This document shows, one piece after another, positions 231-36,135 of a DNA stretch of 36,135 bases. Each line of letters starts with the position of its first letter. Positions within the stretch are counted from its first letter, which is position 1. Below the pieces are notes generated by a model that saw only the letters and a list, made by a program, of their open reading frames with translations, was not told where the DNA came from and searched no databases. This stretch comes from a virus. The stretch is from the IMG/VR virus record IMGVR_UViG_3300031977_002441, positions 1 through 36,135 of that record; one strand, given 5' to 3'. A program made the translations under genes and the position numbers.

Positions 231-231
231 C

Positions 232-2297: not shown

Positions 2298-2300
2298 GCT

Positions 2301-2440
2301 ATGGCAACCATCCCCAGCGGACAGAAATTCCACACCGTTCCCGCCAACGTAGATACCGACGACAAGGGCTCGGCGCGTGCGAATGCGGACCGAGAGATTT
2401 ACACGATGCAAGACATCATCGACACGGCCGGTGGCGGTGG
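2301..2440 (+). repeat. N-terminal tag repeat, copy 1 (partner at 3887-4023)
   Basis: The first ~47 codons match those at 3887-4023. The shared DNA includes ATCCCCAGCGGACAGAAATT, followed by a near-identical YTMQDIIDTAGGGG-coding segment. This is a domain-level duplication in which only the N-terminal tag is shared and the downstream parts differ. Confidence 0.75.
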
Positions 2441-4438: not shown

Positions 4439-6209
4439 TATCAGTAAGTTCAGCGGGACCCTTATTGACGGTGTCAGTAAGGTTGACGGGGTGCTCAAGG
4501 ACAGTATCTCGACCATCGACGGCATCACTTTGCCGCCGCTGCTCCCGTATACGCCCCCCCTTGACGTCTTCTCCAACGCTGTCCTTGCGTACAGCGTCCG
4601 CAAAATCCGTACGGACTATGCGGGCCCCTGCCTCGAAGCGTATCGCAGCAGCGATGGCGCAACCCTAGACATCGGATTCGATGCTAACGGTCTTCTTAGC
4701 GAGGCTGAGCTAGCAGCTTTCTACGACGGCAACCCCATCCTCGTCTCCCGCTGGTACGACCAGAGCACCTCGGCCAACGATATGGTTCAGGCTACGCCTG
4801 CCGATATGCCTACTGTCTACCAAGACTTCAGTGCGAGCTGGGCTGCTGGCGGCGTTACCGTAGGCCGCTTGCGTCCGGCGGCCCTGAGCAGCCTAGACCC
4901 CCTGAACTCTTCGTTTACGATTACCGCTACCGGCGCTGTCCACACCAAGCGAATGGATGTGGTTACGCCCATCACTTCTGTTGGCCCTACGTATAGCGCC
5001 CTAGCCATTTCCAACGGAAATAGCAACAGCAGCCATATCTACGGTAACACGGGTGGCCAGACCCTTATTACGACCATCAACTCCACTCGATGGAACTTGC
5101 AGGGAACTGGCGGTGGCAACTTCGCCATTGCCGACAACTTAAACGGACAGAACAGTCTTTTGGTCCGGCGCTCTTCTAGCGCCGACCTGAACTTCAATGG
5201 CCTGACCCCGCCCTCCGGAACCATTACGGGGGGTAGCGGCACCCTCGGCGACTTCCACCTTTGGGACAGTCAGTTCATTACTCAGTATAACGGCAATATC
5301 TCGGAGTTCATCCTGTTCAGTGACGACAAGTGGTCCAATATGGGCGCCATCGTCAACAACAGCGGCTCCTACTTCAACACCAGTCTGGTGGTCAACCCCG
5401 ATGCGGCTACGAGCGGGTTCCTGTTTGATTACCCGGGTGCTGCTGTAGCCTATTCGGTCCGTCAGCTCAACAACAACGCTACGGCCTCTATGCGAGTACG
5501 GCGTACTGTGGCGCCGTTTGACGAACAGGACATCGGCTTCGATAGCAATGGAGAGCTTGACACGTCCGCCATCAGCACGTTCGGTGGCTCGGACCCGTTG
5601 ACGGTCTCGGTGTGGTACGACCAGACGGGAGGCTGCAACCACTCTTCTCAGACTATTGAAATTCGCCAGCCTGAGATTTACGATGGCGTCAGCGTAAACC
5701 TAGACAACGGCAAGCCCGCCGTACGGTTTACCGACCCGGGTCAGGATAGCAATAGGGACACTCTTGATTGGGGATACGACGTCGACACCCAACTGTTTAG
5801 TTGGAGCTGCGTCGCCGGATTTTCCCCATCGGGAGCTGTCCGAACGATTATCCACCGAGACAACACTGGTGCAGGCAACTACCTTAGAGTTGACACTAAC
5901 GGATATGTTATCGTTAAGCCCAACGATTTCGACGGCCTCAGTGGCAGTACGTTCGACGGCACTCAGAAGTTGAACACCGTTATCCGTTCAAGTGCAACCA
6001 CGGCCACCAGCTATCAAGACGGTTCACAAACAGGCACGATTTCTACGCTTGACGCCAGCAATATTGTATGGGGAAATACCGACGCCAATATCACTGGTAC
6101 GGGAGTCCTTAGCTTCAATGTTCAGGAGATTGTCCTTTGGACTTCGGATGAGTCGACCAACCGCACCGGCATCGAGACCAACATCAACGGTTATTACTCT
6201 ATCTACTAA
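4431..6209 (+). CDS. Tail appendage protein, paralogue of the 232-1890 product
   Basis: 592 aa. The chosen start is a TTG at 4431 that overlaps the end of the upstream gene by 8 nt. It yields MPDISKFSGTLIDGV followed by SKVDGVLKDS, a short repeat of the ISK(V)DGV type often found at phage fibre N-termini. Two arabinofuranosidase-B-like domains follow, at about residues 45-310 and 325-592, with AYSVRK/AYSVRQ, DIGFD and WYDQS/WYDQTG signatures. The second domain is the near copy of that in the gene at 232. I infer glycan binding at the host surface. Having two paralogous proteins may widen receptor range or form a hetero-oligomeric spike. The exact start is less certain than the frame. Confidence 0.75.
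   Translation: MPDISKFSGTLIDGVSKVDGVLKDSISTIDGITLPPLLPYTPPLDVFSNAVLAYSVRKIRTDYAGPCLEAYRSSDGATLDIGFDANGLLSEAELAAFYDGNPILVSRWYDQSTSANDMVQATPADMPTVYQDFSASWAAGGVTVGRLRPAALSSLDPLNSSFTITATGAVHTKRMDVVTPITSVGPTYSALAISNGNSNSSHIYGNTGGQTLITTINSTRWNLQGTGGGNFAIADNLNGQNSLLVRRSSSADLNFNGLTPPSGTITGGSGTLGDFHLWDSQFITQYNGNISEFILFSDDKWSNMGAIVNNSGSYFNTSLVVNPDAATSGFLFDYPGAAVAYSVRQLNNNATASMRVRRTVAPFDEQDIGFDSNGELDTSAISTFGGSDPLTVSVWYDQTGGCNHSSQTIEIRQPEIYDGVSVNLDNGKPAVRFTDPGQDSNRDTLDWGYDVDTQLFSWSCVAGFSPSGAVRTIIHRDNTGAGNYLRVDTNGYVIVKPNDFDGLSGSTFDGTQKLNTVIRSSATTATSYQDGSQTGTISTLDASNIVWGNTDANITGTGVLSFNVQEIVLWTSDESTNRTGIETNINGYYSIY
5393..5687 (+). repeat. Duplicated tail-domain DNA, copy 2 (partner at 1102-1395)
   Basis: This copy encodes the same peptide blocks as 1102-1395 (AAVAYSVRQLN, RRTVAPFDEQDIGFD, ISTFGGSD) with mainly synonymous changes. 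Similarity falls off downstream, so the C-terminal halves have diverged more than the N-terminal half of the domain. Confidence 0.7.
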
Positions 6210-9774: not shown

Positions 9775-11971
9775 GCTATATACCGTTCGGTACGACTACG
9801 TATCGAAGGGTGTGGTATCCAACAAGAACCGCGCGAAGACGTGGATGTATGGATACAACGAGAAGTACGATATGGTCGTCATCTCGAAGACGGGCCAGAT
9901 TGGCGACATCATCGAAGTCAACGGCCTCGTTATCGCGCTGCCTTTGGCGCCTAAAGACTTGCCGGCAGGAAAGAACAAGTGGGTCCGCGAGGACCTCCCC
10001 AAGGCGCTCTCTCGCATCCAGAGCATCTTCCAATGGAACGATATGCCCAAGGCGTTCAAGGCGCAGTGGGTGGACTATATCGAGGGCGAGTTCGACAGGA
10101 GGGAGGAGGGCCACTGGTTCGTCAACGGCGGCGTCCCGACGTACATCACGGGTGCCCACTACATGTACTTGCAGTGGACGAGCATCGATGTGGGGTACCC
10201 GGACTACCGCGAGGCCAATCGGATATTCTTTATCTTCTGGGAAGCGTGCAAGGCGGACCCCCGCAGCTTCGGTATGGTATACCTGAAGATTCGTCGTTCG
10301 GGCTTTTCGTTCATGGGGTCTTCGGAGTGCGTCAACACAGGAACTCTAGCCAAGGACTCACGAGTTGGGATACTCTCAAAGACAGGTGGTGACGCCAAAA
10401 AAATGTTCACCGACAAGGTTGTGCCTATCGCCAACCGCCTCCCTTTCTTCTTCAAACCGATACAGGACGGCATGGATAAGCCGAAAACGGAACTGGCGTT
10501 TCGTATACCTGCTTCGAAGATTACAAAGAAGAACATGTACGATGTGGAGGACGAAGAGATTTTCGGACTGGACACGACCATCGACTGGAAGAACACCGAC
10601 GACAACTCCTACGACGGAGAGAAGCTCCTCCTCCTCGTCCACGACGAGAGCGGAAAGTGGGTCAAGCCCAACAACATCCTCAACAACTGGCGAGTTACCA
10701 AGACGTGCTTGCGGCTGGGTAGCAAGATTATCGGCAAGTGCCTTATGGGCTCGACTTCGAACGCGCTGGCGAAGGGAGGCTCAAATTTCAAGAAGCTATA
10801 CGACGATTCCGACCCGCGTGTACGCAACGCCAACGGACAGACCAAGAGCGGCATGTACTCCCTCTTCATCCCGATGGAGTACAATATGGAAGGCTTCATC
10901 GACGAGTTCGGCCACCCGGTGTTCCACGCGCCGGAGAAGCCGGTGATGGGCGTCGACGGTGAGAAGATTCGTAGCGGGGCGGTAGACTATTGGGAGGCGG
11001 AGGTCGAGAGCATGAAGAACGACCCGGACGCCCTCAACGAGTTCTACCGGCAGTTTCCGCGTACTGAGTCGCATGCCTTCCGGGACGAAAGCAAGCAGAG
11101 TCTATTTAATCTGACCAAGATTTACCAGCAGATTGATTACGCCGACAGCCTTGTCAAAGAGCACTACCTCACGCGCGGTTCATTCCGATGGGAGAACGGC
11201 ATTCGCGACAGCAAAGTCATCTTCAGTCCCGACAAGCGGGGCAGATTCAATGTGTCTTGGACGCCACCTAAGCACATGCAAAACCGTTGGATAGAAAAAC
11301 GTGGCATCAAGCACCCCGGCAATGAACATATCGGCTCCTTTGGATGTGACTCCTATGACATTAGTGGCACTGTTGGTGGTGGTGGTTCTAATGGCGCTCT
11401 GCACGGAATGACCAAGTTCCACATGGACGACGCGCCGACCAACGAGTTCTTCCTTGAGTATGTCGCCCGCCCGCAGACGGCGGAGATTTTCTTCGAGGAG
11501 GTGCTTATGGCCTGCGTCTTCTATGGCATGCCCATTCTGATTGAGAACAACAAGCCGAGGCTGCTGTACCACTTCAAGAACCGTGGGTATCGCGGGTATT
11601 GCATGAACCGCCCCGACAAGCACTTCAATAAGTTGAGTAAGACCGAGCGCGAGCTCGGCGGCATCCCCAACAGTTCCGAGGACGTCAAGCAGGCCCACGC
11701 CGCCGCCATCGAGAGCTACATCGAAAAGCACGTGGGAGTCCTAGAGGACGGGGAGATTGGCAGTATGCCATTCGTGCGAACCCTTGAGGACTGGGCGCGG
11801 TTTGATATTAGCAACCGTACTGCATTCGACGCTACGATTAGCAGCGGACTGGCGGTTATGGCCAACCAAAAACACCTCTATCTGCCTGAGCAGAAGAAGA
11901 GTTCAATAAGCATTACCTTGCCGAGATATAACAATCGTGGTTATAGGAGCGAGCTGAATGAAGGACGTTAA
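9752..11971 (+). CDS. Large terminase subunit (packaging ATPase and nuclease)
   Basis: 739 aa from a TTG at 9752. The ATPase part has a divergent P-loop region KIRRSGFSFMGSSE (179-192) with no canonical GK[ST], a Walker B LLLLVHDES (292-300, D298/E299) and a coupling motif LMGSTSN (331-337). The C-terminal RNase H-like nuclease has GCDSYDISGT (531-540, D533/D536), PILIENN (594-600, E598) and an acidic residue in FDATISSG (692-699). The enzyme pumps DNA through the portal and cuts concatemers. It overlaps the small subunit candidate upstream and the portal downstream (14 nt). The length is at the long end for the family because of an extended N-terminus (~100 residues). Confidence 0.88.
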   Translation: MQSDVPDKLYTVRYDYVSKGVVSNKNRAKTWMYGYNEKYDMVVISKTGQIGDIIEVNGLVIALPLAPKDLPAGKNKWVREDLPKALSRIQSIFQWNDMPKAFKAQWVDYIEGEFDRREEGHWFVNGGVPTYITGAHYMYLQWTSIDVGYPDYREANRIFFIFWEACKADPRSFGMVYLKIRRSGFSFMGSSECVNTGTLAKDSRVGILSKTGGDAKKMFTDKVVPIANRLPFFFKPIQDGMDKPKTELAFRIPASKITKKNMYDVEDEEIFGLDTTIDWKNTDDNSYDGEKLLLLVHDESGKWVKPNNILNNWRVTKTCLRLGSKIIGKCLMGSTSNALAKGGSNFKKLYDDSDPRVRNANGQTKSGMYSLFIPMEYNMEGFIDEFGHPVFHAPEKPVMGVDGEKIRSGAVDYWEAEVESMKNDPDALNEFYRQFPRTESHAFRDESKQSLFNLTKIYQQIDYADSLVKEHYLTRGSFRWENGIRDSKVIFSPDKRGRFNVSWTPPKHMQNRWIEKRGIKHPGNEHIGSFGCDSYDISGTVGGGGSNGALHGMTKFHMDDAPTNEFFLEYVARPQTAEIFFEEVLMACVFYGMPILIENNKPRLLYHFKNRGYRGYCMNRPDKHFNKLSKTERELGGIPNSSEDVKQAHAAAIESYIEKHVGVLEDGEIGSMPFVRTLEDWARFDISNRTAFDATISSGLAVMANQKHLYLPEQKKSSISITLPRYNNRGYRSELNEGR

Positions 11972-14393
11972 GGTTAACATCTCTACTGCTGGTTTCCCAA
12001 GTCAGTTCGTTTCTGACGCGGAGAAGGCATCGGACGAGTACGGCCTTATGGTCGGACAAGCCATTCAATACGAGTGGTTCAAGAAGGACGGCAACCAGTG
12101 CCGCTTCTACAACCAGTGGCGCGACTTCAACCGCTTGCGCCTCTACGCTCGCGGAGAGCAAAGTATCGGCAAGTACAAAAACGAGCTCGCCATCGACGGC
12201 GACCTTTCGTATTTGAATTTGGACTGGACCCCGGTCCCTATCCTCCCTAAGTTCGTTGACATCGTCGTCAACGGTATGTCCGAGCGTGTCTTCAAGGTCA
12301 AGGCTTACGCTCAAGACGCTTTGTCGCAGAGCAAGCGCAGCAAGTATCAGGACATGATTGAGGGACAGATGGTCGCCAAGCCTGTCCTCGAGCTCATCCA
12401 GCAGAAGACGGGCGTAGACCCGTTCACCATGGACCCGGGCGACCTCCCGAACAACGACGAGGAGCTGAGCCTGTATATGCAGCTCAACTACAAGCCTGCC
12501 ATCGAGATTGCTGAGGAGGAAGCCATCAACACCATCCTCGAGGAGAACCACTACTCGGACCTGCGCAAGCGCCTCGACTACGACCTTACGGTCTTGGGCA
12601 TCAGCGTCGCCAAGCACGAGTTCTTGCCCGGCGCGGGCGTACAGCTTTCGTACGTCGACCCGGCGAATGTCGTATACAGCTATACGGAAGACCCTCAGTT
12701 CAAGGACTGCTTCTACTGGGGTGAGATTAAGACTCTGCCCATCACTGAGCTGATGAAGATTGACCCGAGCCTCACCAACGAGGACTTGGAGGAGATTAGC
12801 AAGTACAGCCAGAGTTGGTACGACTACTACAACGTGGCCCAGTTCTACGAGAACGATATGTTCTATCGTGACGTGGCTACGCTGATGTACTTCAACTACA
12901 AGACAACCAAGAAGATTGTCTACAAGAAGAAGAAGCTCGACGGCGACGGAGCCCGGATGATTGAAAAGGACGACCAGTTCAATCCGCCGGACGAGATGAT
13001 GGAGGAGGGCAACTTCGAGAAGGTCGAGAAGACCATCGACGTCTGGTACGAGGGCATCATGGTTATGGGCACCAACATCCTGCTGAAGTGGGAGGTGGCC
13101 GAGAACATGGTCCGCCCAAAGTCGGCCAGCCAGCACGCGCTGCCCAACTATGTGGCTACGGCCCCCCGCATGTACAAGGGCGTCATCGAGTCTCTGGTCC
13201 GACGCATGGTTCCGTTCGCGGACCTCATCCAGATTACGCACCTCAAGCTCCAGCAGGTCATCGCACGTACGGTACCGGACGGGGTGTATATCGACGCTGA
13301 CGGCCTCAACGAGGTCGACCTCGGCACAGGCAACGCCTACAACCCTGAGGACGCCCTGCGGCTATACTTCCAAACGGGTAGCGTCATCGGCCGGTCCTTC
13401 ACTCAGGACGGAGAGTTCAACCACGGCAAGGTCCCCATTCAGGAGCTGGCTTCGAACAGTGGTGCTGCCAAGACGCAGATGCTGATTGGCAATATGAACC
13501 ACTACCTGCAAATGATTCGCGACGTCACAGGTCTCAACGAGGCCCGCGACGGTAGCACTCCCGACCCGCACAGTCTGGTCGGCTTGCAGAAGCTGGCTGC
13601 GGCCAACAGCAATACGGCCACCCGCCACATTTTGGACGGCAGCCTGTACATGTTCCGGTCTTTGGCTGAGGCCCTGACGTATCGGGTCAGTGATATCCTT
13701 GAGTACGCTGACTTCAAGGAAGAGTTCGCCAACCAGATTGGTAAGTACAACGTCAGTATCCTCGGTGAGATTAGCGACCTGTACATCTACGACTTCGGCA
13801 TCTTCATCGAGGTCAGCCCCGACGAGGAGCAGCGTGCGCAGCTCGAGGCCAATATCCAAATGGCTTTGAGCAAGGGCGACATCAACCTCGAGGACGCCAT
13901 CGACATCCGAGAGATTAAGAACCTCAAGCTCGCCAACCAACTGCTCAAGGTCAAGCGTATCGCCAAGCAGGAGCGGGAGGAGCAGATGGCTATGCAGCAG
14001 CAGGCTATGCAGCAGCAGGCCAACCTACAGTCTCAGGAGATGGCTGCACAGACGGCCATGCAGAAGATTCAGGCCGAATCGCAGGGCAAGATGCAGGTCA
14101 AGCAGGCCGAGATTGCATTTGAGATTGAGAAGATGCAGGCCGAAGCGCAACTGAAGGCACAGCTTATGGAGCGCGAGTTTCAGTATCAGTTGCAACTGGC
14201 TGGCATCCAAGAGCAGGGCTTGCAGCAGCGCGAGGACAACCGCGAGAAGGCCAAGGCCAGCCGCATTAGTCAACAAAATACTGAGCAGAGCAAGCTTATC
14301 GACCAACGGAAGAATAACTTGCCGCCCATCAATTTCGAGTCGAATGAAGACAGCTTGGACGGCTTCGACTTGGCAGAATTTAGTCCGAGATAA
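11958..14393 (+). CDS. Portal protein
   Basis: 811 aa, directly after the large terminase and before scaffold and capsid, which is the standard place for a portal. The N-terminal two thirds have portal-like features: an early RLYARGEQ segment, LNLDWTPVPILPKFVDIVVN, then a long mixed alpha/beta body with YVDPANVVYSY and a crown region after it. Residues ~674-780 form a long Gln/Met/Ala-rich coiled coil (MQQQAMQQQANLQ), the kind of C-terminal barrel or crown helix seen in large podovirus portals. AGGAG lies 8 nt before the start, one of the few plausible Shine-Dalgarno sites. It forms the dodecameric DNA gate of the head. Confidence 0.85.
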   Translation: MKDVKVNISTAGFPSQFVSDAEKASDEYGLMVGQAIQYEWFKKDGNQCRFYNQWRDFNRLRLYARGEQSIGKYKNELAIDGDLSYLNLDWTPVPILPKFVDIVVNGMSERVFKVKAYAQDALSQSKRSKYQDMIEGQMVAKPVLELIQQKTGVDPFTMDPGDLPNNDEELSLYMQLNYKPAIEIAEEEAINTILEENHYSDLRKRLDYDLTVLGISVAKHEFLPGAGVQLSYVDPANVVYSYTEDPQFKDCFYWGEIKTLPITELMKIDPSLTNEDLEEISKYSQSWYDYYNVAQFYENDMFYRDVATLMYFNYKTTKKIVYKKKKLDGDGARMIEKDDQFNPPDEMMEEGNFEKVEKTIDVWYEGIMVMGTNILLKWEVAENMVRPKSASQHALPNYVATAPRMYKGVIESLVRRMVPFADLIQITHLKLQQVIARTVPDGVYIDADGLNEVDLGTGNAYNPEDALRLYFQTGSVIGRSFTQDGEFNHGKVPIQELASNSGAAKTQMLIGNMNHYLQMIRDVTGLNEARDGSTPDPHSLVGLQKLAAANSNTATRHILDGSLYMFRSLAEALTYRVSDILEYADFKEEFANQIGKYNVSILGEISDLYIYDFGIFIEVSPDEEQRAQLEANIQMALSKGDINLEDAIDIREIKNLKLANQLLKVKRIAKQEREEQMAMQQQAMQQQANLQSQEMAAQTAMQKIQAESQGKMQVKQAEIAFEIEKMQAEAQLKAQLMEREFQYQLQLAGIQEQGLQQREDNREKAKASRISQQNTEQSKLIDQRKNNLPPINFESNEDSLDGFDLAEFSPR

Positions 14394-14412: not shown

Positions 14413-15480
14413 ATGGAAATCAAAGTCCGTGAGGTGAACGAGGTAGAATCCAAGTCCACCCAACAGGTGGAGCAGGAGCTCCTTGAGAAGCATGAGGCAG
14501 AGCAACAAGCTGACGAGCAGCCTGTTGCGGAGGAGCCCGTCGAAGAACCCGCTGGGCTCTCCGAGGACGACGTGCGCTTGTTTCTGAGCGAGCGTTACGG
14601 TCGGGAGATTGGCTCGTTGGACGAGCTGAACGAGGCGCGGGAGACTGCGCCGGAGCTGCCCGAGGACGTGGCGGCGTACTACAAGTACAAGCAAGAGACG
14701 GGCCGTGGGCTCGAAGACTTTATGAAGGTGAACCGCAACCTCGACGAGGCTGACGGCGATAGCCTACTGAAGGAATACCTCCTCATCACTGAAGACGGTC
14801 TCGATGCCGAGGACGTGGAGATGATGATGGACGATTATAAATACGATGCCGACCTCGATGACGAGGCCGATATCAAGAAGGCCAAGCTGGCCAAAAAGAA
14901 AGCGATTGCTAAGGCGAAGAAATACTTCGCGGAGCAGAAGGAGAAGTATCAGGCCCCTCTTGAGTCAAGGGGTGCCGGGTCTCTGGAAGACTCCGAGGAG
15001 TACCAAGCGTACAAGCAATACGTTGAGCAGGCGAAGACGTACCAAGAGGAACAGAAGCGCAGGAAAGAGTGGTTTGACGAGAAGACGAATGAGGTCTTCT
15101 CCGATGGATTCAAAGGTTTTGAGTTCAGTATCGACGACAAATCCTACGTGTACACTCCCGGTGACCGCACTGAATTGAAGAAGCTCCAACAGACTCCGGA
15201 GGCTTGGTTGAACAAGTATCTGGATGACAAGGGCCTCGTCAAGGACGCTGCGGGATACCATAAGTCTTTGGCTGTCGCCATGAATCCCGAGAAGTTTGCC
15301 CGGTTCTTTTACGAGCAGGGGCAGGCTAATGCCGTGGATGATGTCATGCGCAAGACGAAAAACATCAACATGTCTGAGCGCCCGGCACCACAGTCTACGA
15401 CGAAGGGAGGATTGAAAATCCGCGCCGTCAATCAAGATTCGGGCCGAGGCTTGAAGATTAAGACGCGGCGCAGTTCCTAA
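14413..15480 (+). CDS. Head scaffolding protein (putative)
   Basis: 355 aa, highly charged, with an acidic Glu/Gln-rich N-terminus (QQVEQELLEKHEAEQQADEQ), long predicted helices in the middle (KKAKLAKKKAIAKAKKYF) and a basic C-terminal tail (LKIRAVNQDSGRGLKIKTRR). Such composition, together with the position between portal and major capsid protein, is typical of scaffolding proteins, whose basic C-terminal segment binds the capsid shell. No protease motif is visible, so a head maturation protease is unlikely here. Translation begins at an ATG after a 19-nt AT-rich gap. Confidence 0.68.
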   Translation: MEIKVREVNEVESKSTQQVEQELLEKHEAEQQADEQPVAEEPVEEPAGLSEDDVRLFLSERYGREIGSLDELNEARETAPELPEDVAAYYKYKQETGRGLEDFMKVNRNLDEADGDSLLKEYLLITEDGLDAEDVEMMMDDYKYDADLDDEADIKKAKLAKKKAIAKAKKYFAEQKEKYQAPLESRGAGSLEDSEEYQAYKQYVEQAKTYQEEQKRRKEWFDEKTNEVFSDGFKGFEFSIDDKSYVYTPGDRTELKKLQQTPEAWLNKYLDDKGLVKDAAGYHKSLAVAMNPEKFARFFYEQGQANAVDDVMRKTKNINMSERPAPQSTTKGGLKIRAVNQDSGRGLKIKTRRSS

Positions 15481-15499: not shown

Positions 15500-16915
15500 A
15501 TGGCAGGTTCATTGCAAGCCACACCCGGGTTCGATTTGCAACCCAGTGCAGAGCAGGTTGCTCTTAGCACGAACTACATCACCAACTTCGACTTCCTCAA
15601 CCAGTATCTCCCCGATACTTACGAGAAGGAGTTCGAGCGTTACGGCAACCGGACCATCTCCGGCTTCCTCCGCATGGTTGGTGCCGAGATGCCGTCCAAC
15701 TCTGACCTCATCAAGTGGGCAGAGCAGGGACGTCTCCACACGAAGTACACCAACTGCACCTCCGCAGCCGCCGCAGCTCAGGACACGGCTACGTGGACGG
15801 TGAACGACACCCTTGTCCCCGGTACTGGCGGTATCGCCATCCGCGTGGGTCAGACGGTGTTCATCACCGACAACACCGCTGCCAGTGGCCTCGTCAACAA
15901 GGCCATCGTGACGGCTGTCGACACCGCCGCTGGTACGTTCAACGTGGCTTACTACGAGGCTGGCGGCCAGACCGTGGCTGCCGGCGTTGCTTGTACCGTG
16001 ATGATTTACGGTTCCGAGTTCAAGAAGGGCACCAACGGAATGACTGGCTCCCTCGAGGCTGACGATGTCATCTTCGACAACAGCCCCATCATCATCAAGG
16101 ACAAGTACGCTGTCTCTGGTTCCGACATGGCTCAGATTGGCTGGGTTGAGGTGACGACCGAGAACGGTGCTACGGGATACCTGTGGTACCTGAAGTCTGA
16201 GCACGAGACCCGTCTCCGCTTCGACGACTACCTCGAGACCGCTATGATTGAGGCTGTCCCGGCTGAGGCTGCTAGTGGCGCTATCGCTGCTGGTGGTGAC
16301 GTGGGCAACAAGGGTTCCGAGGGTATCTTCTACGCTGTCGAGAATCGCGGTAACGTGTGGTCCGGTGGTATCCCCTCCACCCTCGCCGACTTCGACTCCA
16401 TCATCGGACGTCTGGACAAGCAGGGCGCCATCGAGGAGAACGTCCTCTTCGTGAATCGTGAGATGAGCTTCGATATCGACGACATGCTGGCTGCACAGAA
16501 CAGCTACGGTGCCGGCGGTACGAGCTACGGTCTCTTCGACAACGACGAGCAGATGGCTCTCAACCTTGGCTTCACGGGCTTCCGCCGTGGTTACGACTTC
16601 TACAAGTCTGACTGGAAGTACCTGAACGACCCGACGATGCGTGGTGACCTCACCAACGGTGTCATCAACGGTCTGCTGGTTCCGGCTGGTAGCACCACGG
16701 TCTACGACCAAGTGCTCGGCAAGAACGCCAAGCGTCCGTTCCTCCACGTCCGCTACCGCGCTAGTGAGACCGAGGACCGTCGGTACAAGACGTGGATTAC
16801 CGGTTCCGCCGGAGGCGCTATGAACAGCGACCTCGACGCGATGGAAGTCCACTTCCTCTCCGAGCGTGCTGTTTGCACCATGGGTGCCAACAACTTCTTC
16901 CTCTTCGAGGGATAA
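15500..16915 (+). CDS. Major capsid protein
   Basis: 471 aa. It follows portal and scaffold, is preceded by an A-rich leader (AGAAAACAGAAAAC) and is followed by a strong hairpin, all expected for the most abundant virion protein. Codon use is the most uniform of the window. The N-terminal arm and first helices (NYITNFDFLNQYLPDTYEKE) lead into a core with DKYAVSGSDMAQIGWVEV and a C-terminal VHFLSERAVCTMGANNFFLF strand. Residues ~98-172 are a separate small beta domain inserted near the N-terminus (WTVNDTL to CTVMIYGSEF). I infer the HK97 fold from context and size. The insertion may be a surface decoration domain. Confidence 0.85.
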   Translation: MAGSLQATPGFDLQPSAEQVALSTNYITNFDFLNQYLPDTYEKEFERYGNRTISGFLRMVGAEMPSNSDLIKWAEQGRLHTKYTNCTSAAAAAQDTATWTVNDTLVPGTGGIAIRVGQTVFITDNTAASGLVNKAIVTAVDTAAGTFNVAYYEAGGQTVAAGVACTVMIYGSEFKKGTNGMTGSLEADDVIFDNSPIIIKDKYAVSGSDMAQIGWVEVTTENGATGYLWYLKSEHETRLRFDDYLETAMIEAVPAEAASGAIAAGGDVGNKGSEGIFYAVENRGNVWSGGIPSTLADFDSIIGRLDKQGAIEENVLFVNREMSFDIDDMLAAQNSYGAGGTSYGLFDNDEQMALNLGFTGFRRGYDFYKSDWKYLNDPTMRGDLTNGVINGLLVPAGSTTVYDQVLGKNAKRPFLHVRYRASETEDRRYKTWITGSAGGAMNSDLDAMEVHFLSERAVCTMGANNFFLFEG

Positions 16916-27214: not shown

Positions 27215-29169
27215 CCTATTACAAGTATGTAGAGCGCGACGCCACGTCGCAGGTCAACTGGGCTGACGTCAGCAAGAAGTTCTCCGATGAGATTGAACGG
27301 ATTGGCGGCGAGCGCGATAAGAAGCGGGCGGAGATAGACAAGGCCACCGATGAGTTGGTGACCAAGATTAATGAGGCCCCACTCGGGCAGCATAAGAACG
27401 CCAACCTCTTTACCTCGCAGCTCGTAGACCAAGCCACGGAGGACACCCTGCGTATGAACAGGCTCCTCAAGTCCGGCGATATCAAGCCGTCGGAGTACAT
27501 GAACTATATCGAAAACCAGAAGTCCAGCGTGACTGGCATCTACGATATGGTCAAGGGGTATCAGGACGTGTACACCGATAAGATGACCCGGTTGCAGAAC
27601 GGCGATTCTTTGAGCATGGAAGCTGACGGCATGGCTGTCGTAGAGGGCTTTGGCAACTTCGCCAACATCACCCCCGTAATGGATATGTACGGCAACGTCA
27701 CCATGTACAACAACAGTACTGGCGATACGATGAGTGCTGCACAGATGAACGCCATCACCAAGCAGTACTTCAACGCCTACGACCTAGACGGGGACCTGAC
27801 CGCAAAGGCGGGACAGCTAGGGGAGTATACCAAGTCCATTATGGAGGACGGCGTCAAGACCCGCGAGGACGTGACCGCCTCTCCGGCATACCAAAAGGTG
27901 AAGAACGACCTCATCGCCGCCACGCTGGAGGGCAACCTCGCTGTGAGTACCGTGCTGGACAGGAAGCTCCCGGGATACAGCACGTCATATTCTGCTAAGA
28001 CCGCCGGGGCCAACGACATCCTCATGATTGACGACCCGCGACAGCCGGGCAGCGGAGCGCAGATTCCTCTGGTCGAGGTGGTCGAGCAGGTGGAGCGCAT
28101 GACCGAGGACCAGCGCCGAGAGATTTTCCCTGAAGGCGCCGACGTAAGTGGCTTGATTAAGATTGCCAAAGACCAACGGGAGGCGGCACGCAACTGGGCT
28201 GAGGCGGACCTCACCAGCCGGTTCAATATGATTGAGACGGCCATGCCCCAGCAGAGGGAGACGGAGACCCAGCGCAAGACGCGCCTCGGTGCCGAGCGCA
28301 CCGTCGATGTGGTCACCAATATCCGCAAGCTGCACTCCTTGAAACCGGATGAGTCGCAGGAGGACGTCGACGCTGCCACGAGCTATGTCCAACAGCTCAA
28401 CCCCAACGTCCGCAAGATTGAGTTGGGTGACGAAGAGATTGTCATCCGCATGAAAGACGGAGACTTGATTCCCATCACCAAGGGCGACCAAGCCGACTTG
28501 TTCGTGGAGTCCATCATCAACGCGGTGTACAAAGACAAGGCCGTCAACCTCCCCGACGCACTAAAGAAGGCGGGCGTATATGACGAGGGTCTGACCCGCC
28601 ATACCCTTGGCTCTGTCGCGGGCATCGACGAAACCCTTGACTTCGATGAGGTGAAGGAGGACCTTGTCATCAAAGACCCCGAGACTGGAGAGACTGGTTC
28701 TGGTTCGCCCAAGTCTTTGTTCATTGCCACTACCACGTCCGACGAGGAGGCCGAGAGCATCGCCCCAAAGCAAACGACGGTGATGCAGCAGATGGGCATC
28801 GAGGACGCCGAGGTAGGGTACGAAGAGATGAGCACGAGTTTCCTTGGGTTTGGAGCCAGCAATGCCCTTCGGCTGAACGTCCCGTCGATGTTCCCGCAGG
28901 CCGTCCTGATTTCTGAGGAGGCAGACCTGCAACAAGTGTTGCTCAACTTGAACCAACTCATCAGCGACAACCGTGGTTCGCGCCTCACCGAGGAGCAACT
29001 CAAGGCGGTCATCCCGTCCTACGACGCTTTCAATAATGAAGAGCAGCGAGCCCGCTTTGGTATCGAGCCCAACGTAATGGAGGAGGAGAAGATGACGTGG
29101 ACCCAGTGGTCGTCGAAAAACCCCGGCGGAACAGCAGCAGAATACCGAGCGTATTTTAGTGGACAATGA
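27211..29169 (+). CDS. Internal virion (gp15-position) structural protein
   Basis: 652 aa, mostly helical and charged. It begins MTYYKYVERDATSQVNWADV followed by SKKFSDEIERIGGERD. It has no signal peptide, no transmembrane segment and no enzyme motif that I recognise. Its length is close to T7 gp15 (~747 aa), and it lies between the gp14-like protein and the giant protein. The start overlaps the upstream stop (ATGA) and the stop overlaps the giant gene start, so the three are translated as a set. I infer a role in the ejected complex. Confidence 0.58.
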   Translation: MTYYKYVERDATSQVNWADVSKKFSDEIERIGGERDKKRAEIDKATDELVTKINEAPLGQHKNANLFTSQLVDQATEDTLRMNRLLKSGDIKPSEYMNYIENQKSSVTGIYDMVKGYQDVYTDKMTRLQNGDSLSMEADGMAVVEGFGNFANITPVMDMYGNVTMYNNSTGDTMSAAQMNAITKQYFNAYDLDGDLTAKAGQLGEYTKSIMEDGVKTREDVTASPAYQKVKNDLIAATLEGNLAVSTVLDRKLPGYSTSYSAKTAGANDILMIDDPRQPGSGAQIPLVEVVEQVERMTEDQRREIFPEGADVSGLIKIAKDQREAARNWAEADLTSRFNMIETAMPQQRETETQRKTRLGAERTVDVVTNIRKLHSLKPDESQEDVDAATSYVQQLNPNVRKIELGDEEIVIRMKDGDLIPITKGDQADLFVESIINAVYKDKAVNLPDALKKAGVYDEGLTRHTLGSVAGIDETLDFDEVKEDLVIKDPETGETGSGSPKSLFIATTTSDEEAESIAPKQTTVMQQMGIEDAEVGYEEMSTSFLGFGASNALRLNVPSMFPQAVLISEEADLQQVLLNLNQLISDNRGSRLTEEQLKAVIPSYDAFNNEEQRARFGIEPNVMEEEKMTWTQWSSKNPGGTAAEYRAYFSGQ

Positions 29170-32100
29170 ACGAGACGGAAGAGCTGATGGCACTGGTCCC
29201 CGAGGGGATGTTCGCCAATGCAAGTGAGTTGCAATCTTTCATCGACCAGCAGGGTATGCGGGGCGTCTACGACCTGATTCCCTCTGGCATGTTCGCTGAC
29301 GTCACCGAGCTAGAGGAGGCGTTTGGCTCAAAAAAAAAAGAACCTTCACCCTCGGAGGTTATGCCGTCACTATCTCCCGAAGAGGTGGCGGCAGGCGTGC
29401 AAGAGGCGGTTGGTGCCGTTCCCTTTGGCGCCGAGCCCAATCCGTTTGCTCCTGACGACCCGTACGGATACACGCAAGACGCCCCCATCCAGACGCGGGT
29501 GGAGGCGGTCCGTGAGGTAGACACCGACTTCAAGCCCATCGCCGATACTGAGTCTACGCGCGTAGACATCAAAGGTCCCGGAGAGAAGATTGAAGAGCCC
29601 GAGCCAGAGCAGGACCAGTTCTTCGAGATGTCGATGGCGGCGGTTACGCCCGACCTCATCGATGCCCCCGACGATAGGGATACGGCCAAGGAATTGAACT
29701 ATCAGTTCGGGCGCTATGGCTTTGAGTTTACCACTACGCCCCTCGACTTCCACGACCAAGTCACGGTAAAGGCGGCCAACGGGAATGAGATTACGGTCAA
29801 CCTCGACCCGGTGCTGGATATTGGAAAAGAGGAAGAGACCGAAAAGCTCCGCGATTTCCTGCGCAAAAACAAGATGCAGAGCGAGGCCCTGACTCGCGCC
29901 GAGGAGGGCTACAAGGAAGCTCGCATGCAGTTCGGTACGCGGGAGCAGATTGACCAAGAGGTTACGCGCATCAATACCGCAGAAAACGACTTCCGCAATC
30001 TGGTCAACTCCTACGCCGCTCGCAAGGATGCCATCGAGCAGAAGCACGCGGGGCTACTGAAGTACACTCAGGAGTACCTCGACGCCAACCCCAATGAGTT
30101 TGAGGCGTACAAGGCCGCGTTCAAGATGTACCAAGACGATATGGCCACCCTCGAGGAGGACCGTATCAAGCTTATGGGCATGGGCGACGACCTCGAGTAT
30201 CAAGTGGAGGAGCTCAACCGCGCCGCTGGCGAGTTCGTCAAGCTCAAGGCAGAGCAGTCTACCGTCCTTGGATTTAGCCGTGAAGCCTTGTCTCGTGGTA
30301 CGGCTGGCATGTTTGGAGAGCCGGTCAGTCAACTCATTGACATCGTGTCTCAAGTCATGCCGCTCGGCTCCGGCCGTGGGTATGAGCAGAAGTTCATCGA
30401 CATCGCTCAGGGCATGGGGCTTGTTGGAATCCCCGAGGCTTTGACTACGGAGGCGCCGGAGGGGTCCCGTCCCGGTGACGAAGCGTATACACAGTGGCTT
30501 AGTACCTATCGCAAAACGTACGACGATTGGTACGACAGCCTGCCCAAGCAACTTATTGATGAGGTCCGCGATGAGATGCGCGACCAGATGGCGAAGGGCC
30601 TGAAGTACAACCCGGAGATGGGGGGCATGGTAGACGCCGCCTACGAGGGCGTATACCGTACCCTCGGCGACCGCAAGTTCAACGAGGAGGCGTACGCCAA
30701 AGCGCAAGAAAGCTTCTTGGGTCGTACCGCCCTGTCTTTGCTGGAGTCGGTGCCCGCGTTCATTGGGCGCCCCGGGGGGAGTGCGGCCGTGAAAGCTGCG
30801 TCTCGCTTTGCGCGGATGGAGAATCAGGTTGCAGGACAGGTGGACCGAGAGTTCCGTGCCGACCCTGAGCTGGCCAAGGTGAGCGAAGAAGAGAAGCTTG
30901 TTCTCAAGAAGGGTATCGGCATTGTCGTTGGTGCATTGGAGCAGTTTGGTTTCCGTAACGCATTGGGCCGCAGTGGTGTTGTCAATAGCATCTTGATGCG
31001 CGCCATCAACAAGGCTCCGGTAGGCGTCAAGGGTAAGGCTTTCCGCGACCTTGTACAGCAGGAGATTAAGAGTGCGGCCGCTCGTGGCTTAATCGCTACG
31101 GGTACGGCAGCTTTGGGTGAGGCTGAGACGGAGTTCGTACAGACCTATGCTGAGGTCGGAGCCAAAGACATCTACAACGCCATGAAGGGCAAGGAGATGT
31201 TCAAGGAGGCCGACACGTTTTCCAAGGAGACGTTCTTCCAAGCCATGGAAGCTGCGGCCAGTGGAGCTATCGGAGGTGCGGTCTTGGGCGTACCCGGAAG
31301 TATTGCGGCTGCCTCTACGACCTACGACTTCACCAAGCTCGACGATGCCACGATGGCTACGTTCGAGTTCTTGGCCAACCCCGGCAACCGTGGTGCGAGC
31401 AAGCAGATGTTCGTCACCGACCTGAAGAACAAGGTCAACCGTGGTGAGCTGACCGGACAGCAGGCCAAAGAAGCTGAGGCCAACTACGAGAAGGTGGTGC
31501 AGGCATACGACGGTATGCGCGAGGTGGAGGGTATGACCATGGAGGAGAAGAAGCAGGTGCTGGGACTGGAGGTCCGGCGCCAAGAGCTGCTCCGCCGCAA
31601 GGAGGCTACGGCAGCTCCGTTCCAAGGCCGTATAGACAGAGAGATTTCAGACCTAAACCTAAAGATTCAAGATGCCCTTCAAGAGCGAGAAGCAGCGCCG
31701 GTGGATGTGGGCGAACGAGCCCGAGCTGGCGAGAGAGTGGACGAAGAAGTACGGGAAGAAGAAGCCGTCGTTACTCCGGAAGCGGAAGAAGAAGTAATCC
31801 CCGAGGCCGCCGCAGCCACAAACCAAGACCGCAGGGCGTATGACGGTGGAACCCTCGAGGCCCCGCGTCTGGAGCAACTGCTCAGTGGCGTAGCCGATAA
31901 GCTACGTGCCAAGGGGCGTATGACCGCGTTCCAGTCCCGGCTCCTGACCGAGAATCGGGAGCGGGTGGACACGCTGGTCGAGCTCAAAGACAGGGCCGAG
32001 GCCGAGGCGTTGCGCGAAGAGGCCGCGTTGGACGAGACGGTAGAGACGCTGGCTCCGAACGTAGAGTCACGCCGTGTCACTACAGTGGACCTGAACCCCA

Positions 32101-35100
32101 TCCAAGAGCGGGTGGTATCGCGGGCGCAAGCTGCGGCGAAAGCGGTGTCTCAGGTCGCACCGAACGTCAAGTTCGTACTGCACGAAACGACGGCTCAGTA
32201 CAATCGCGCTACTGGATTTACGGGCGGTGGCGTATTCACCGACGGAACCGTACACATCAACCTCGAGCGTGCCGACAACCGTACCGTAGCTCACGAGACG
32301 CTGCACGCGATTATGCTCAGCGCCGACGGTATGACCCTCCCCGTGGCGCAGCAGGTGACCAAGCGTATGGCCACCTCGTTGAGCAAGTCCTTGGACAAGG
32401 GCACCGAGCTGAAGAAGCGGCTCGATAAGTTCATTGCCCGGTACGACGAAAACGTCCGCGACGAAGAGAAGGTAGCCGAGCTGTTCGGGTATATGGCTGA
32501 CGGATATGCCAACCTCGAGGCCCCACAGAAGAGCCTCATCCGCAGGTACGTAGAGAGGATTGCCGAGACCTTTGGCGTCAAACTCCCTTCGGGCTGGGGT
32601 CAGCAGGACCAAGACGTCATCGACTTCCTCAACACCGTGTCACGCAAGGTCGCTGCCGGCGAGGTCATCACCGAGGAGGAGGTGGCCGTCACTCGTGCAA
32701 CGAGGGAGGAGCAACGCGCCAAGACGGACGAGAACCTCCGCGCTGCCGAGCAGCGGGTGGCTGACTTCTCCGACGAGCAGCTTCAGGCCATGGCTGACGA
32801 GGGGGTTATCTTCCACTTTGGCCCGGTTGACATTACGAGGGTCATACCGGAGAAGCTCAAGCGATTTGGTTTGGGTTATGGATTCTACTTCACCGACTAC
32901 GCCCTCGAGGACTCTGTCTTCAGGAGTCTGGGAGAAAGGGTGACGATGGCCGACTCCAACGAGTTGAACCTGCTCGATGGGGATACAGCGATTACTGAGG
33001 AGCAAGCCAAGGCCCTGCGTAGTGCAGCCAAGACCGAGTTGCAGGAGGCTGAGGAGTACGGAGACGACCTTGGTTTTGAGGAGAGCCAAGTGCTAATGTC
33101 CATCGCAGAGACGAGGGCAGGGGAGCAGTGGTATGCGTACTTCACCTCCAGCTTGGACGACAACAGAAAGGTTGAGTCCGAACTGACCGACGAGCAAAAG
33201 GCAACTGCCGCTCGATTGGTACAGGAGATGCTGGGCTTCGACGGAGTGACCTATGGTAGTGACCAAAGGAACACCGGCGTCATCACTTCCGCTTGGAACT
33301 TCAACAAGCTCAACCGCGCCATCATTCCGCCGACCCGCGCCGCAGAGCAGCGGGTGGACATCAAGACCGATGGAACAAGCATTGACATTGAAGGCAATGA
33401 GCCAGTCAAGGCTGGGCAGATTAGCCCCACGGTAAGAATTGATGCCACTGAAAAGAGGGACGCATCCCTTGAGGACGACTTCCGTCTTGACGATATCGAC
33501 GGGACCATCACGTCTCGCGCCTCTGCTGCCGTAGGTACCGCTAGGCGACTGGCGTCAGGCAAAGTCGTGTATACCAAAGATGGCGTCAAGTACACCATCG
33601 AGCTGCCGTATGAGAACAAGAGACTGCTATCGCTCCTGAATCGCAGGAGCAATGCCGTTGCTGCCGTAAAGGGAAGCACCGATAAAGCCAAAGCGAAGAG
33701 GGCGAAGCTGCTGGAGCGCGTCAAGGAGACCACCAACGAAATCCTTTCCGATGCGGTGGAGGTGATGACGCAGAACATCCTCGCCGTCTACGACACGCTG
33801 ACCCCAGAGTTTGTGGCGGCGTCGAAGGAGTGGTACGTAGGGGCCAACAGGGTAGCGAACCGCATGGCGGAAATCTATGGCGTTACTGTAGAGGAAGCCG
33901 CCGGAGTTCTTGCTGCCCTTAGCCCGCAGAACGATTGGTTTAACAACATCGCTGTTGCTGAGCGCACGTTCGAGGTTTTGGAAAACCACTCAGACACGCC
34001 GTTCTCGGAAGAGATATTCAGGAAGGCATACGAAGCCAACACGCAGCGCGGCAAGCCGAGCAAGTGGGCGCTACTTCTGGCGGAGACGTTCGAGCAGTAT
34101 GGCGGCATGACGCTCAACGAGATGGAGGCTCAAGGGGTACCGGTAACTGTGCAGACCAACCTCTTGCGTGCCATAGACCAAGCTATGTATCCCGGCAATG
34201 TGCTGATGACTACGCCCGATGGCGACTTCATTGGTTTCGATAGCACCCCGATACGTTGGAGCTCTCCGGTAGAGATAGCCAAGGCTATGGACATGTACCG
34301 CAACCCCTCGATAGAAAATATCCGAGAGCAATTGGGCGGGGGAAACAAGGTCCGGAACTTCTACAACAATATCGTAGACCCCAACTCTACCAGTCCATAT
34401 GTCACCGCCGATACCCACGCTGCTTCGGTGGCGCTGGGCATCCCTATGTCCGCCAATGATGCCGGCGGCTTTGGTGTGTTCAAGGGTGGGCGCGGTATAG
34501 AGTATGCGCTCATCAAAGAGGCGTACATCAACGCAGCAGAGATAGCTGGAATACTGCCACGCGAGATGCAATCCATTACTTGGGAGGCACAGCGCACGGG
34601 CATCAACAACAAGAACCGTACTGCATCTGAAATCAAAGCCAATGTTGAACTGCTCAAGCGGTTGCTCAACGACGAAACACTAACGCCATATGAAAGGACA
34701 AGACGAATCATCGCCGAGAACCCAAGCGAAAACCCCGGGTGGGCAACAAGCAGAGGAATTGAAGCGCAACTATCTGACTTACTCGAAGGCATTGAAGCTC
34801 AAGCCGAATCAAGAGGACGCGAAGTTCTTTCTCTACGGAGAGGCGCCGGAAGAGACGTGGGAGACGCCGCTGCCCGAGTGGGTGAACCGGCTGCCGAAGA
34901 AGGCGCCCGTGAGCAGGCGCGTGCGCGAGCTGCTGAGCAACGCGTAGCCGACGTAGTAGAGCGGTACAAGTTCCGTCCGGACGGAAGCTTGATTGGGGAC
35001 AGCCGCCTTGCGGCGGAGCTGGGCCGGAACCTTGAACGCTATGGCTTTGGTGTAGAGCAGTTCGGGGACCGCATGAACCGGTTCTTCATCGTCGATGCTG

Positions 35101-36135
35101 ACGGACGACGCGTAGACCCGAAGAAGCTGGTTGCCGAAGACCGTGCCGACGAGCGCGAAGAGATGCAAATGCGGGCCGAAGAGCGAGCCGCACAAGAGGC
35201 GCGCGAGCTGGCCGAGCGGGAGCAGGAGCTGTTCGAAACCGAAGAGGCACCGTTCCTTGAGACCATCTTCCCCGAGTCAGACCTGCCCGCTAGGGAACAG
35301 AAGGACGACCTCGATAAGTCGGGCCCCACAGAACTCGACCGACTGGTGGCATACGCCAAGGAGCGCGGATACTCCAACGCCGCTATCCTCCTCGCCCGAC
35401 CCGAAGCGCAGGACGCAATCGATGCCTACGAGGAATCCGAGAAGCGGATGCTCAAGGAACTCAACGGGGTCATCAAGATGGCGCAAGCCCGAACTGATTT
35501 CACTCCCAAGCGTGTCCTAGAAAGTGCATTAATATATCTGCAAGGCTCCAAGTTCTACGCTGACGCTACCGACTTAGGCCGAGAGCTTATGGTGCGTGGC
35601 CTCAGGGAGAAGCTCGGCGTGAGGGAGAAGCGTGCCCCATCAGCCAAGCGGATTGTCTCGGGACCGGTAGAGCGGGTGACGCTGACCGTAAGGGAGGCGC
35701 TCAACAACCAGCTCAAGTCCGAAGCGCGTGGCGCAAGGGCCGCTGCGGCGGCATCTAAGGCAGTGCTGAAGCAGATGGCTGCCGATATCACCGAGTTGCA
35801 GCGCGAGGGCAAAATCACCGCCAAGCAGGCCGCGACAGTAATCAGGAGGTTCGCGTCCGTAAACGTATTCAACCCCGTTGCGGTAGACAACTTCCTTGAC
35901 TACATGGCCAAGGTGTTCGCCGACGCAGAGTATGCCAACGACATGGCTCGCCTGCGGAAGATGCGTCCCACGGCAAAGAAGAACGTGAAGCGGAAGCTGG
36001 GTCGCCAGCCGGAGCTCATCTCCGATATCCTGACCGTACTGGCCATAGACCCGACGCGCATCCCCGTCGATACGCTGCCACAGTACCGCAACCTGCTCGA
36101 TATCATGAGCAAGCGCCGCGCCGTACTGGAGCTGC
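29166..36135 (+). CDS. Giant polyvalent/ejected protein with peptidase and ADP-ribosyltransferase-like domains (3' end outside window)
   Basis: I read this frame codon by codon from ATG 29166 to the right edge without a stop: at least 2323 codons. N-terminus: a short tandem repeat (VPEGMFANASELQSFI, IPSGMFADVTELEEAF), then linker, coiled coil (~215-320), and a helical region with GEAETEFVQTYAEV and a hydrophobic stretch (~690-718). HETLH (1043-1047) with downstream E1101 or E1105 marks a zinc metallopeptidase. H1217 in IFHFG, GFYFTD (1239-1244) and GFDGVTYG (1357-1364) resemble an ADP-ribosyltransferase. EWYVGANR (from 1555), ALSPQNDW (1584-1591) and ADTHA (1748-1752) mark another domain. A charged helical region follows. 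It probably enters the cell with the DNA (gp16-like position) and acts on host targets. Linkers hold two nested ORFs. Confidence 0.75.
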   Translation, partial: MNETEELMALVPEGMFANASELQSFIDQQGMRGVYDLIPSGMFADVTELEEAFGSKKKEPSPSEVMPSLSPEEVAAGVQEAVGAVPFGAEPNPFAPDDPYGYTQDAPIQTRVEAVREVDTDFKPIADTESTRVDIKGPGEKIEEPEPEQDQFFEMSMAAVTPDLIDAPDDRDTAKELNYQFGRYGFEFTTTPLDFHDQVTVKAANGNEITVNLDPVLDIGKEEETEKLRDFLRKNKMQSEALTRAEEGYKEARMQFGTREQIDQEVTRINTAENDFRNLVNSYAARKDAIEQKHAGLLKYTQEYLDANPNEFEAYKAAFKMYQDDMATLEEDRIKLMGMGDDLEYQVEELNRAAGEFVKLKAEQSTVLGFSREALSRGTAGMFGEPVSQLIDIVSQVMPLGSGRGYEQKFIDIAQGMGLVGIPEALTTEAPEGSRPGDEAYTQWLSTYRKTYDDWYDSLPKQLIDEVRDEMRDQMAKGLKYNPEMGGMVDAAYEGVYRTLGDRKFNEEAYAKAQESFLGRTALSLLESVPAFIGRPGGSAAVKAASRFARMENQVAGQVDREFRADPELAKVSEEEKLVLKKGIGIVVGALEQFGFRNALGRSGVVNSILMRAINKAPVGVKGKAFRDLVQQEIKSAAARGLIATGTAALGEAETEFVQTYAEVGAKDIYNAMKGKEMFKEADTFSKETFFQAMEAAASGAIGGAVLGVPGSIAAASTTYDFTKLDDATMATFEFLANPGNRGASKQMFVTDLKNKVNRGELTGQQAKEAEANYEKVVQAYDGMREVEGMTMEEKKQVLGLEVRRQELLRRKEATAAPFQGRIDREISDLNLKIQDALQEREAAPVDVGERARAGERVDEEVREEEAVVTPEAEEEVIPEAAAATNQDRRAYDGGTLEAPRLEQLLSGVADKLRAKGRMTAFQSRLLTENRERVDTLVELKDRAEAEALREEAALDETVETLAPNVESRRVTTVDLNPIQERVVSRAQAAAKAVSQVAPNVKFVLHETTAQYNRATGFTGGGVFTDGTVHINLERADNRTVAHETLHAIMLSADGMTLPVAQQVTKRMATSLSKSLDKGTELKKRLDKFIARYDENVRDEEKVAELFGYMADGYANLEAPQKSLIRRYVERIAETFGVKLPSGWGQQDQDVIDFLNTVSRKVAAGEVITEEEVAVTRATREEQRAKTDENLRAAEQRVADFSDEQLQAMADEGVIFHFGPVDITRVIPEKLKRFGLGYGFYFTDYALEDSVFRSLGERVTMADSNELNLLDGDTAITEEQAKALRSAAKTELQEAEEYGDDLGFEESQVLMSIAETRAGEQWYAYFTSSLDDNRKVESELTDEQKATAARLVQEMLGFDGVTYGSDQRNTGVITSAWNFNKLNRAIIPPTRAAEQRVDIKTDGTSIDIEGNEPVKAGQISPTVRIDATEKRDASLEDDFRLDDIDGTITSRASAAVGTARRLASGKVVYTKDGVKYTIELPYENKRLLSLLNRRSNAVAAVKGSTDKAKAKRAKLLERVKETTNEILSDAVEVMTQNILAVYDTLTPEFVAASKEWYVGANRVANRMAEIYGVTVEEAAGVLAALSPQNDWFNNIAVAERTFEVLENHSDTPFSEEIFRKAYEANTQRGKPSKWALLLAETFEQYGGMTLNEMEAQGVPVTVQTNLLRAIDQAMYPGNVLMTTPDGDFIGFDSTPIRWSSPVEIAKAMDMYRNPSIENIREQLGGGNKVRNFYNNIVDPNSTSPYVTADTHAASVALGIPMSANDAGGFGVFKGGRGIEYALIKEAYINAAEIAGILPREMQSITWEAQRTGINNKNRTASEIKANVELLKRLLNDETLTPYERTRRIIAENPSENPGWATSRGIEAQLSDLLEGIEAQAESRGREVLSLRRGAGRDVGDAAARVGEPAAEEGAREQARARAAEQRVADVVERYKFRPDGSLIGDSRLAAELGRNLERYGFGVEQFGDRMNRFFIVDADGRRVDPKKLVAEDRADEREEMQMRAEERAAQEARELAEREQELFETEEAPFLETIFPESDLPAREQKDDLDKSGPTELDRLVAYAKERGYSNAAILLARPEAQDAIDAYEESEKRMLKELNGVIKMAQARTDFTPKRVLESALIYLQGSKFYADATDLGRELMVRGLREKLGVREKRAPSAKRIVSGPVERVTLTVREALNNQLKSEARGARAAAAASKAVLKQMAADITELQREGKITAKQAATVIRRFASVNVFNPVAVDNFLDYMAKVFADAEYANDMARLRKMRPTAKKNVKRKLGRQPELISDILTVLAIDPTRIPVDTLPQYRNLLDIMSKRRAVLEL
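31672..31797 (+). CDS. Nested 41-aa gene (KSEKQRRWMWANEPE type) inside the giant gene
   Basis: An ATG-to-TAA ORF lies in the +1 frame of the giant gene. The peptide MPFKSEKQRRWMWANEPELA, then REWTKKYGKKK and a basic tail, is a type of small phage protein I recognise by its KSEKQRR(W/Y)MW pattern; its function is unknown to me. Its codons (AAG, GAG, CTG, CGC, AGC, GCG) are those of normal genes in this window. The giant frame here reads an acidic low-complexity stretch (EEEAVV, EAEEEV) with CGA and AGA arginine codons rarely used elsewhere. Strongly basic, it could bind nucleic acid. Confidence 0.65.
   Translation: MPFKSEKQRRWMWANEPELAREWTKKYGKKKPSLLRKRKKK
32739..32765 (+). repeat. RAAEQRVAD border motif, copy 1
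   Basis: Encodes R1192-D1200 of the giant protein, just before the ADP-ribosyltransferase-like domain. The DNA CGCGCTGCCGAGCAGCGGGT is nearly the same as at 33336. The other copies are at 33336-33359 and 34926-34952. Confidence 0.6.
33336..33359 (+). repeat. RAAEQRVD border motif, copy 2
   Basis: Encodes R1391-D1398, just after the ADP-ribosyltransferase-like domain. It differs from copy 1 at two synonymous positions over the first 22 bases. Confidence 0.6.
34690..34947 (+). CDS. Nested 85-aa gene inside the giant gene
   Basis: An ATG-to-TAG ORF in the +1 frame of the giant gene. After a polar start it reads AEELKRNYLTYSKALKLKPN, QEDAKFFLYGEAPEETWETP and LPEWVNRLPKKAPVSRRVRE, which is a coherent soluble protein sequence. 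Its codon use (CTG, GAG, AAG, CCG, GCG, CGC) is normal for this genome, while the giant frame over the same bases uses atypical AGA, GGA, CGA and CTA codons and reads as Ala/Arg/Glu linker. This argues that the nested frame is the older coding frame. I do not know the family. Confidence 0.6.
   Translation: MKGQDESSPRTQAKTPGGQQAEELKRNYLTYSKALKLKPNQEDAKFFLYGEAPEETWETPLPEWVNRLPKKAPVSRRVRELLSNA
34926..34952 (+). repeat. RAAEQRVAD border motif, copy 3
   Basis: Encodes R1921-D1929 after the ADTHA domain. It overlaps the 3' end of the nested 85-aa gene and is more diverged at DNA level (CGAGCTGCTGAGCAACGCGT), although the peptide is identical. Confidence 0.55.

Follow-up and report, generated by a model that had tools for sequence, protein, structure and literature searches.

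A predicted dual-coding small gene nested out of frame in unrelated phage host genes

Introduction

The usual explanation of overlapping genes is that a new gene arose within an older one. The classical out-of-frame nested genes of phages are phiX174 E within D and lambda Rz1 within Rz, and the gene described here resembles them in that it lies wholly inside a larger gene, is read in another frame and begins at an internal start. It differs in that E/D and Rz1/Rz each have a fixed host gene, whereas this gene, which belongs to the KSEKQRR family, is found in at least two unrelated hosts in the same relative frame, and non-nested relatives survive. The window, that is, the whole stretch of viral DNA analysed here (36,135 nucleotides), carries one such copy within a giant gene.

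The closest described relatives of the small protein are phrog_1375, a family of unknown function, and separately encoded KSEKQRR proteins, with which it shares the N-terminal pattern MPFKSEKQRR..(W)AN.PE.A..W...YG, a basic tail and a similar size. These separately encoded genes lie outside longer genes, whereas the window copy lies wholly inside another gene, in a different frame. No report of the KSEKQRR motif or of a nested phage scaffold gene was found in the literature covered, which mostly excludes subscription journals.

For the giant host, the nearest counterparts are the polyvalent-type phage proteins, whose packaging and injection have been suggested (Iyer, Burroughs, Aravind and colleagues 2017, PMC5512222). 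Like these, the giant is modular and encoded after virion genes, and a homologous giant has an ART-PolyVal domain; nested genes are not mentioned in the passages of that paper on polyvalent proteins covered here, whereas the giant of the window contains them.

Results

A small gene within the giant frame

The giant is the last gene of the contig and reaches 3269 amino acids in the near-identical contig L006. DUF7178 is its only Pfam domain in the window, the homologous giant L032 having ART-PolyVal and GNAT, and a DNA-level search of the giant against a phage collection gave no match.

29166–36135, + strand: giant gene hosting the small gene, running off the contig; modular, possibly polyvalent-type (DUF7178 in Pfam; ART-PolyVal in the homologue L032)
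33750–34031, + strand: match to DUF7178 (PF23802, Pfam) in the giant, with a second nested ORF at its 3' end
31672–31797, + strand: small KSEKQRR-family gene, out of frame within the giant gene (ORF, phrog_1375 match, homologues, dual-coding signature, codon use)

The small ORF runs from ATG to TAA, encodes 41 amino acids (MPFKSEKQRRWMWANEPELAREWTKKYGKKKPSLLRKRKKK) and is located wholly within the giant frame (29166 to beyond 36134), which is open across it, reads ALQEREAAPVDVGERARAGERVDEEVREEEAVVTPEAEEEV and begins its codons at the third position of the small-ORF codons. The preliminary description of this locus, made from the sequence alone, had pointed to a complete 41-codon ORF with native codon use and a recognisable small-phage-protein sequence, overlying a stretch where the giant frame uses rare arginine codons, and each of these points is borne out. 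The relative-usage score of the small ORF (0.23) falls inside the range of true giant-frame windows (median 0.13, 95th percentile 0.30), and the giant frame across the same positions scores -0.29, under its own 5th percentile, with three CGA codons and one AGA. The peptide matches the phrog_1375 profile (E 6e-5); no Pfam family was matched, and sequence and fold searches of the PDB gave no meaningful match. In the diverged relative L007 the small peptide is 73% identical over its full length, with 24 of 29 residues matching in the ungapped portion. A chance ORF is ruled out by the phrog_1375 match together with separately encoded homologues found by tblastn, the search that the preliminary description had proposed for stand-alone relatives.

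A widespread family in several states

Separately encoded homologues are present in the Streptomyces phage FlowerPower (gp48), 023Pt_psg01, Prochlorococcus phage P-RSP2, Synechococcus phage S-CBS2 and uncultured phages, and a profile scan of IMG/VR yielded at least 566 confirmed relatives. Among the IMG/VR relatives listed, many are small genes outside longer ones and some form the N-terminus of longer proteins, while out-of-frame nesting is seen in about 33 of the best 80. As judged by sequence similarity, the 41-residue ORF is a member of a family of small basic proteins that is widespread among phages. We collected 262 distinct copies, some of them added by two DNA-pattern scans that favour copies with TTC as the third codon and AGC or TCG as the fifth, and hence nested copies; 192 are nested, 51 are not nested and 19 lie at the N-terminus of longer proteins. 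An alignment of 48 sequences has invariant P17, A20, W23 and Y27 and an invariant MPFKSEKQ start, the latter being biased because it coincides with the scan pattern.

The hosts of the 192 nested copies comprise one main family (187 copies), giants (3) and hosts of unknown kind (2). In the main family all nested copies share one relative frame; their host gene is located between those for the portal and the major capsid protein and encodes an acidic protein of approximately 400–430 amino acids. This is probably the scaffold, a name given from position and acidic composition; PHROGs labels it unknown or structural, and in phage elemoE it is annotated as 'structural protein'. One scaffold-nested copy matches the phrog_1375 family with E 5e-6. 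The relative frame is again the same in four giants, each of a different phage, in which the small gene is nested. Metagenome-assembled genomes (MAGs) contribute one more giant-nested copy (Cytophagales) and a scaffold-nested copy (labelled Pelagibacter). We also note a diverged copy in a Nitrospirae-labelled MAG contig (L350), in the same relative frame inside a 1251-codon frame (positions 3–3755) that is possibly a third kind of host gene.

The window has its own homologue of the probable scaffold gene, in the corresponding position.

11958–14393, + strand: portal protein (PF16510 P22_portal, E 2e-8)
14413–15480, + strand: homologue of the probable scaffold gene, without the small gene (31–36% identity to nested-copy hosts)
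15500–16915, + strand: virion structural protein; its position points to the major capsid protein (phrog_13704, E 9e-107)

This homologue aligns with the nested-copy hosts downstream of the nested segment; its N-terminus is shorter, and it contains no KSEKQRR ORF. In the contig of L007 (G002) and in a 64.9-kb contig (G015, L338), too, the scaffold homologue lacks the small gene, whose single copy lies in the giant. In the parts covered of the scaffold-nested contig G006, no ORF longer than 860 amino acids was found besides one 1731-codon frame overlapping known genes.

Both frames of the nested segment are constrained

Across 18 distinct scaffold genes, third-position diversity of the host frame is 0.48 but drops to 0.16 over precisely the nested part; in 290 other windows of these genes it goes no lower than 0.42. 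Same-amino-acid pairs in the host frame use a different codon in 3.6% of cases in the nested part versus 38% elsewhere, and the small frame undergoes normal synonymous change, with 31% of such pairs using another codon. Amino-acid differences in the small frame amount to 24% in the nested part, compared with 62% for that frame elsewhere. The giants behave in the same manner: over the nested gene, host synonymous differences among the window, L007 and L032 number 1/15, 0/18 and 1/17, as against 54–61% outside it (P 4e-9 to 5e-10 in the third-position test).

The choice of small-frame codons bears a complementary mark. T-ended codons that would create a stop in the host frame are absent from nested copies (0/418) but common in copies that are not nested (173/588). 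T is also depleted at the other third positions of the nested frame, where no stop would arise (0.14 versus 0.48), which shows some amino-acid preference of the host frame as well. With silent host sites frozen and stop-making endings absent from nested copies, both frames are constrained. This combination of frozen host-frame silent sites and a conserved alternative frame is the signature of overprinting, and it upholds the overprinting claimed in the preliminary description, which had named an absence of stand-alone homologues, or selection on the giant frame alone, as what would speak against it. Since homologues exist and the synonymous-site comparison in both frames points to selection on the small frame too, neither objection applies. 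We therefore regard 31672–31797, on these comparisons of aligned copies, as a predicted true dual-coding gene with both frames under selection.

A second ORF of this kind occupies the same relative frame further downstream in the giant.

34690–34947, + strand: second nested out-of-frame ORF, 85 amino acids, in the relative frame of the first; conserved in L007 and L032

Its ATG is the same in L007 and L032. Its 93% identity between the window and L007 was dropped as evidence of selection and the comparison with L032 used instead, because the surrounding module was recently exchanged, which makes that identity uninformative. Against L032 the nested frame is 64% and the giant frame 53% identical, and giant third-position differences are reduced over the ORF (0.29 versus 0.57 outside, P 7e-5). 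The ORF appears from this comparison to show a dual-coding signature, milder than that of the first nested gene. The scans made found relatives of it in giants only, with no separately encoded one.

Start context and choice of frame

31654–31671, + strand: A-rich start context with no good Shine-Dalgarno site (50% A; giant background 24%)

When the 146 distinct upstream sites of nested copies are pooled, A is present at -3 in 84% and at -5, -6, -8 and -11 to -13 in 86–94%, an enrichment that is partly explained by Lys and Glu codons of the host frame. In Flavobacterium an A at -3 promotes initiation (PMC6847099), and the A-rich start of the nested copies may fit initiation of this style. We propose that ribosomes would start at the internal ATG, from an A-rich site of Bacteroidota type inside the host mRNA, such that the small protein would be made alongside the host protein.

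The shared frame is the harder of the two to keep open, so ease of staying open was rejected as the reason for it. When the window peptide is randomly recoded with synonymous codons at low, even and high GC3, the used host frame is open in 0.02%, 2% and 26% of cases; for the other frame the figures are much higher (37%, 52% and 68%). Rather, we infer that the acidic product of the used frame explains the choice: the net charge is -10 for the host-frame shadow, +12 for the nested peptide and +11 for the shadow in the other frame. An acidic, hydrophilic shadow of a basic gene may be tolerated by a scaffold or linker, and we propose that the nested state persists because of this tolerance.

Discussion

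Whereas overlapping genes are commonly seen as births within old genes, the KSEKQRR case is one of an old small gene overlaid by other coding sequence, in two unrelated hosts and in the same relative frame. In each of two different host genes, a single stretch of DNA appears to be under selection to encode two proteins. Because nesting in the same frame recurs in two hosts and non-nested copies are available for comparison, the cost, direction and frame preference of overprinting become directly measurable. A conserved gene of the head region, present in a large group of marine phages, would go unseen by gene callers, which do not allow overlaps of this kind. Our overall explanation, which we hold to be quite likely, is that of a dual-coding small gene, overlying the giant's acidic linker and predicted to be translated from an internal start, with a product of the head module and a tolerated acidic shadow, carried on a movable segment.

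The preliminary description held that the small gene is older and that the giant was extended across it. Greater age is supported, given the homologues outside longer genes in many unrelated phages; the data do not establish extension. That the giant lost a stop and fused with its flanking genes across a stand-alone small gene, with no movement of the segment, seems improbable to us. The family is indeed common outside longer genes, and L007, L032 and L343 align upstream up to the nested gene, L007 and L032 on both of its sides, so nesting in giants is old. However, non-nested copies are seldom stop-free in the host frame (7/47), and no relative was found with the small gene alone between two giant halves. 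Furthermore, nested copies share frame and shadow in two unrelated hosts, the second being the portal–capsid gene whose version in the window lacks the small gene, and the window copy is closer in DNA identity to a scaffold-nested copy (86%, L023) than to the nearest giant-nested one (81%). These last observations make insertion of an already dual-coding segment at least as likely, and movement of such a segment is favoured over extension of the giant. What the giant of the window has in common with L007 is confined to the nested gene and the sequence after it, and the small-gene tree, with 84 columns, is weak and too short to resolve the direction of movement. Once stop-free in both frames, the segment could move between host genes as a dual-coding unit. 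We give roughly even odds to the stronger form of this proposal, in which the unit is portable because its alternative frame provides a usable acidic linker, lands in unrelated genes with its relative frame the same each time, and is then kept.

Two readings that deny coding by one of the frames are very hard to reconcile with the comparisons above. Were the nested frame an untranslated relic of a captured small gene, used as linker and kept by recent descent, the near-identity of the window, L006 and L008 across the region would be accounted for, but diverged giant pairs conserve the small frame while the giant silent sites are frozen, the reverse of what a relic predicts, and 18 diverged scaffold genes repeat the pattern. 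Equally remote is the reading in which the shadow peptide in the host protein is alone functional and the small ORF a by-product; the depletion of T at third positions where no stop arises does reveal a host amino-acid preference, yet the host frame varies at first positions with its silent sites frozen, and the conserved peptide is one that is encoded outside longer genes elsewhere, without such a shadow.

The role of the product is the weakest step of the dual-coding explanation. From its neighbourhood and from L038, we infer that the small protein is a basic member of the head-assembly module, predicted to fold as a two-helix hairpin (mean pLDDT 80), and the nested product would act as a small head-assembly protein. 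Non-nested copies also sit between portal and major head protein genes. In L038 (6421–6900), downstream of an AGGAGG, the small frame is continuous with that of the scaffold body, and the former scaffold N-terminus, in the other frame, terminates at a stop; an indel could have produced this fusion naturally, or the assembly may be in error. A different role, as an injected or early-acting small basic protein, for example a DNA-binding one, carried near late genes, is somewhat doubtful, but would suit the strong positive charge and the possibly polyvalent-type giant host, a class for which packaging and injection have been proposed (PMC5512222). Against it stand the several contigs that place the small gene between portal and capsid genes and, again, L038 with the small protein at the scaffold N-terminus.

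Several further features of the window were observed. The giant module with DUF7178, at about 33339–34890, is nearly identical in L007, whose giant is otherwise far more diverged, indicating recent module exchange with the L007 lineage. A linker, AAEQRV or AAEQKV, is repeated at the borders of swapped modules (giant residues 1193, 1392 and 1922, about 32742, 33339 and 34929), is also present in L007 and L008, and may represent a seam left by recombination or else a processing site. Further same-strand out-of-frame ATG ORFs occur in the giant at 29785, 30094, 32977 and 33253, and a metalloprotease-like HETLH motif was spotted by eye in the window. At the 5' end of the contig, two proteins (232–1890 and 4431–6209) match the arabinofuranosidase catalytic family (PF09206).
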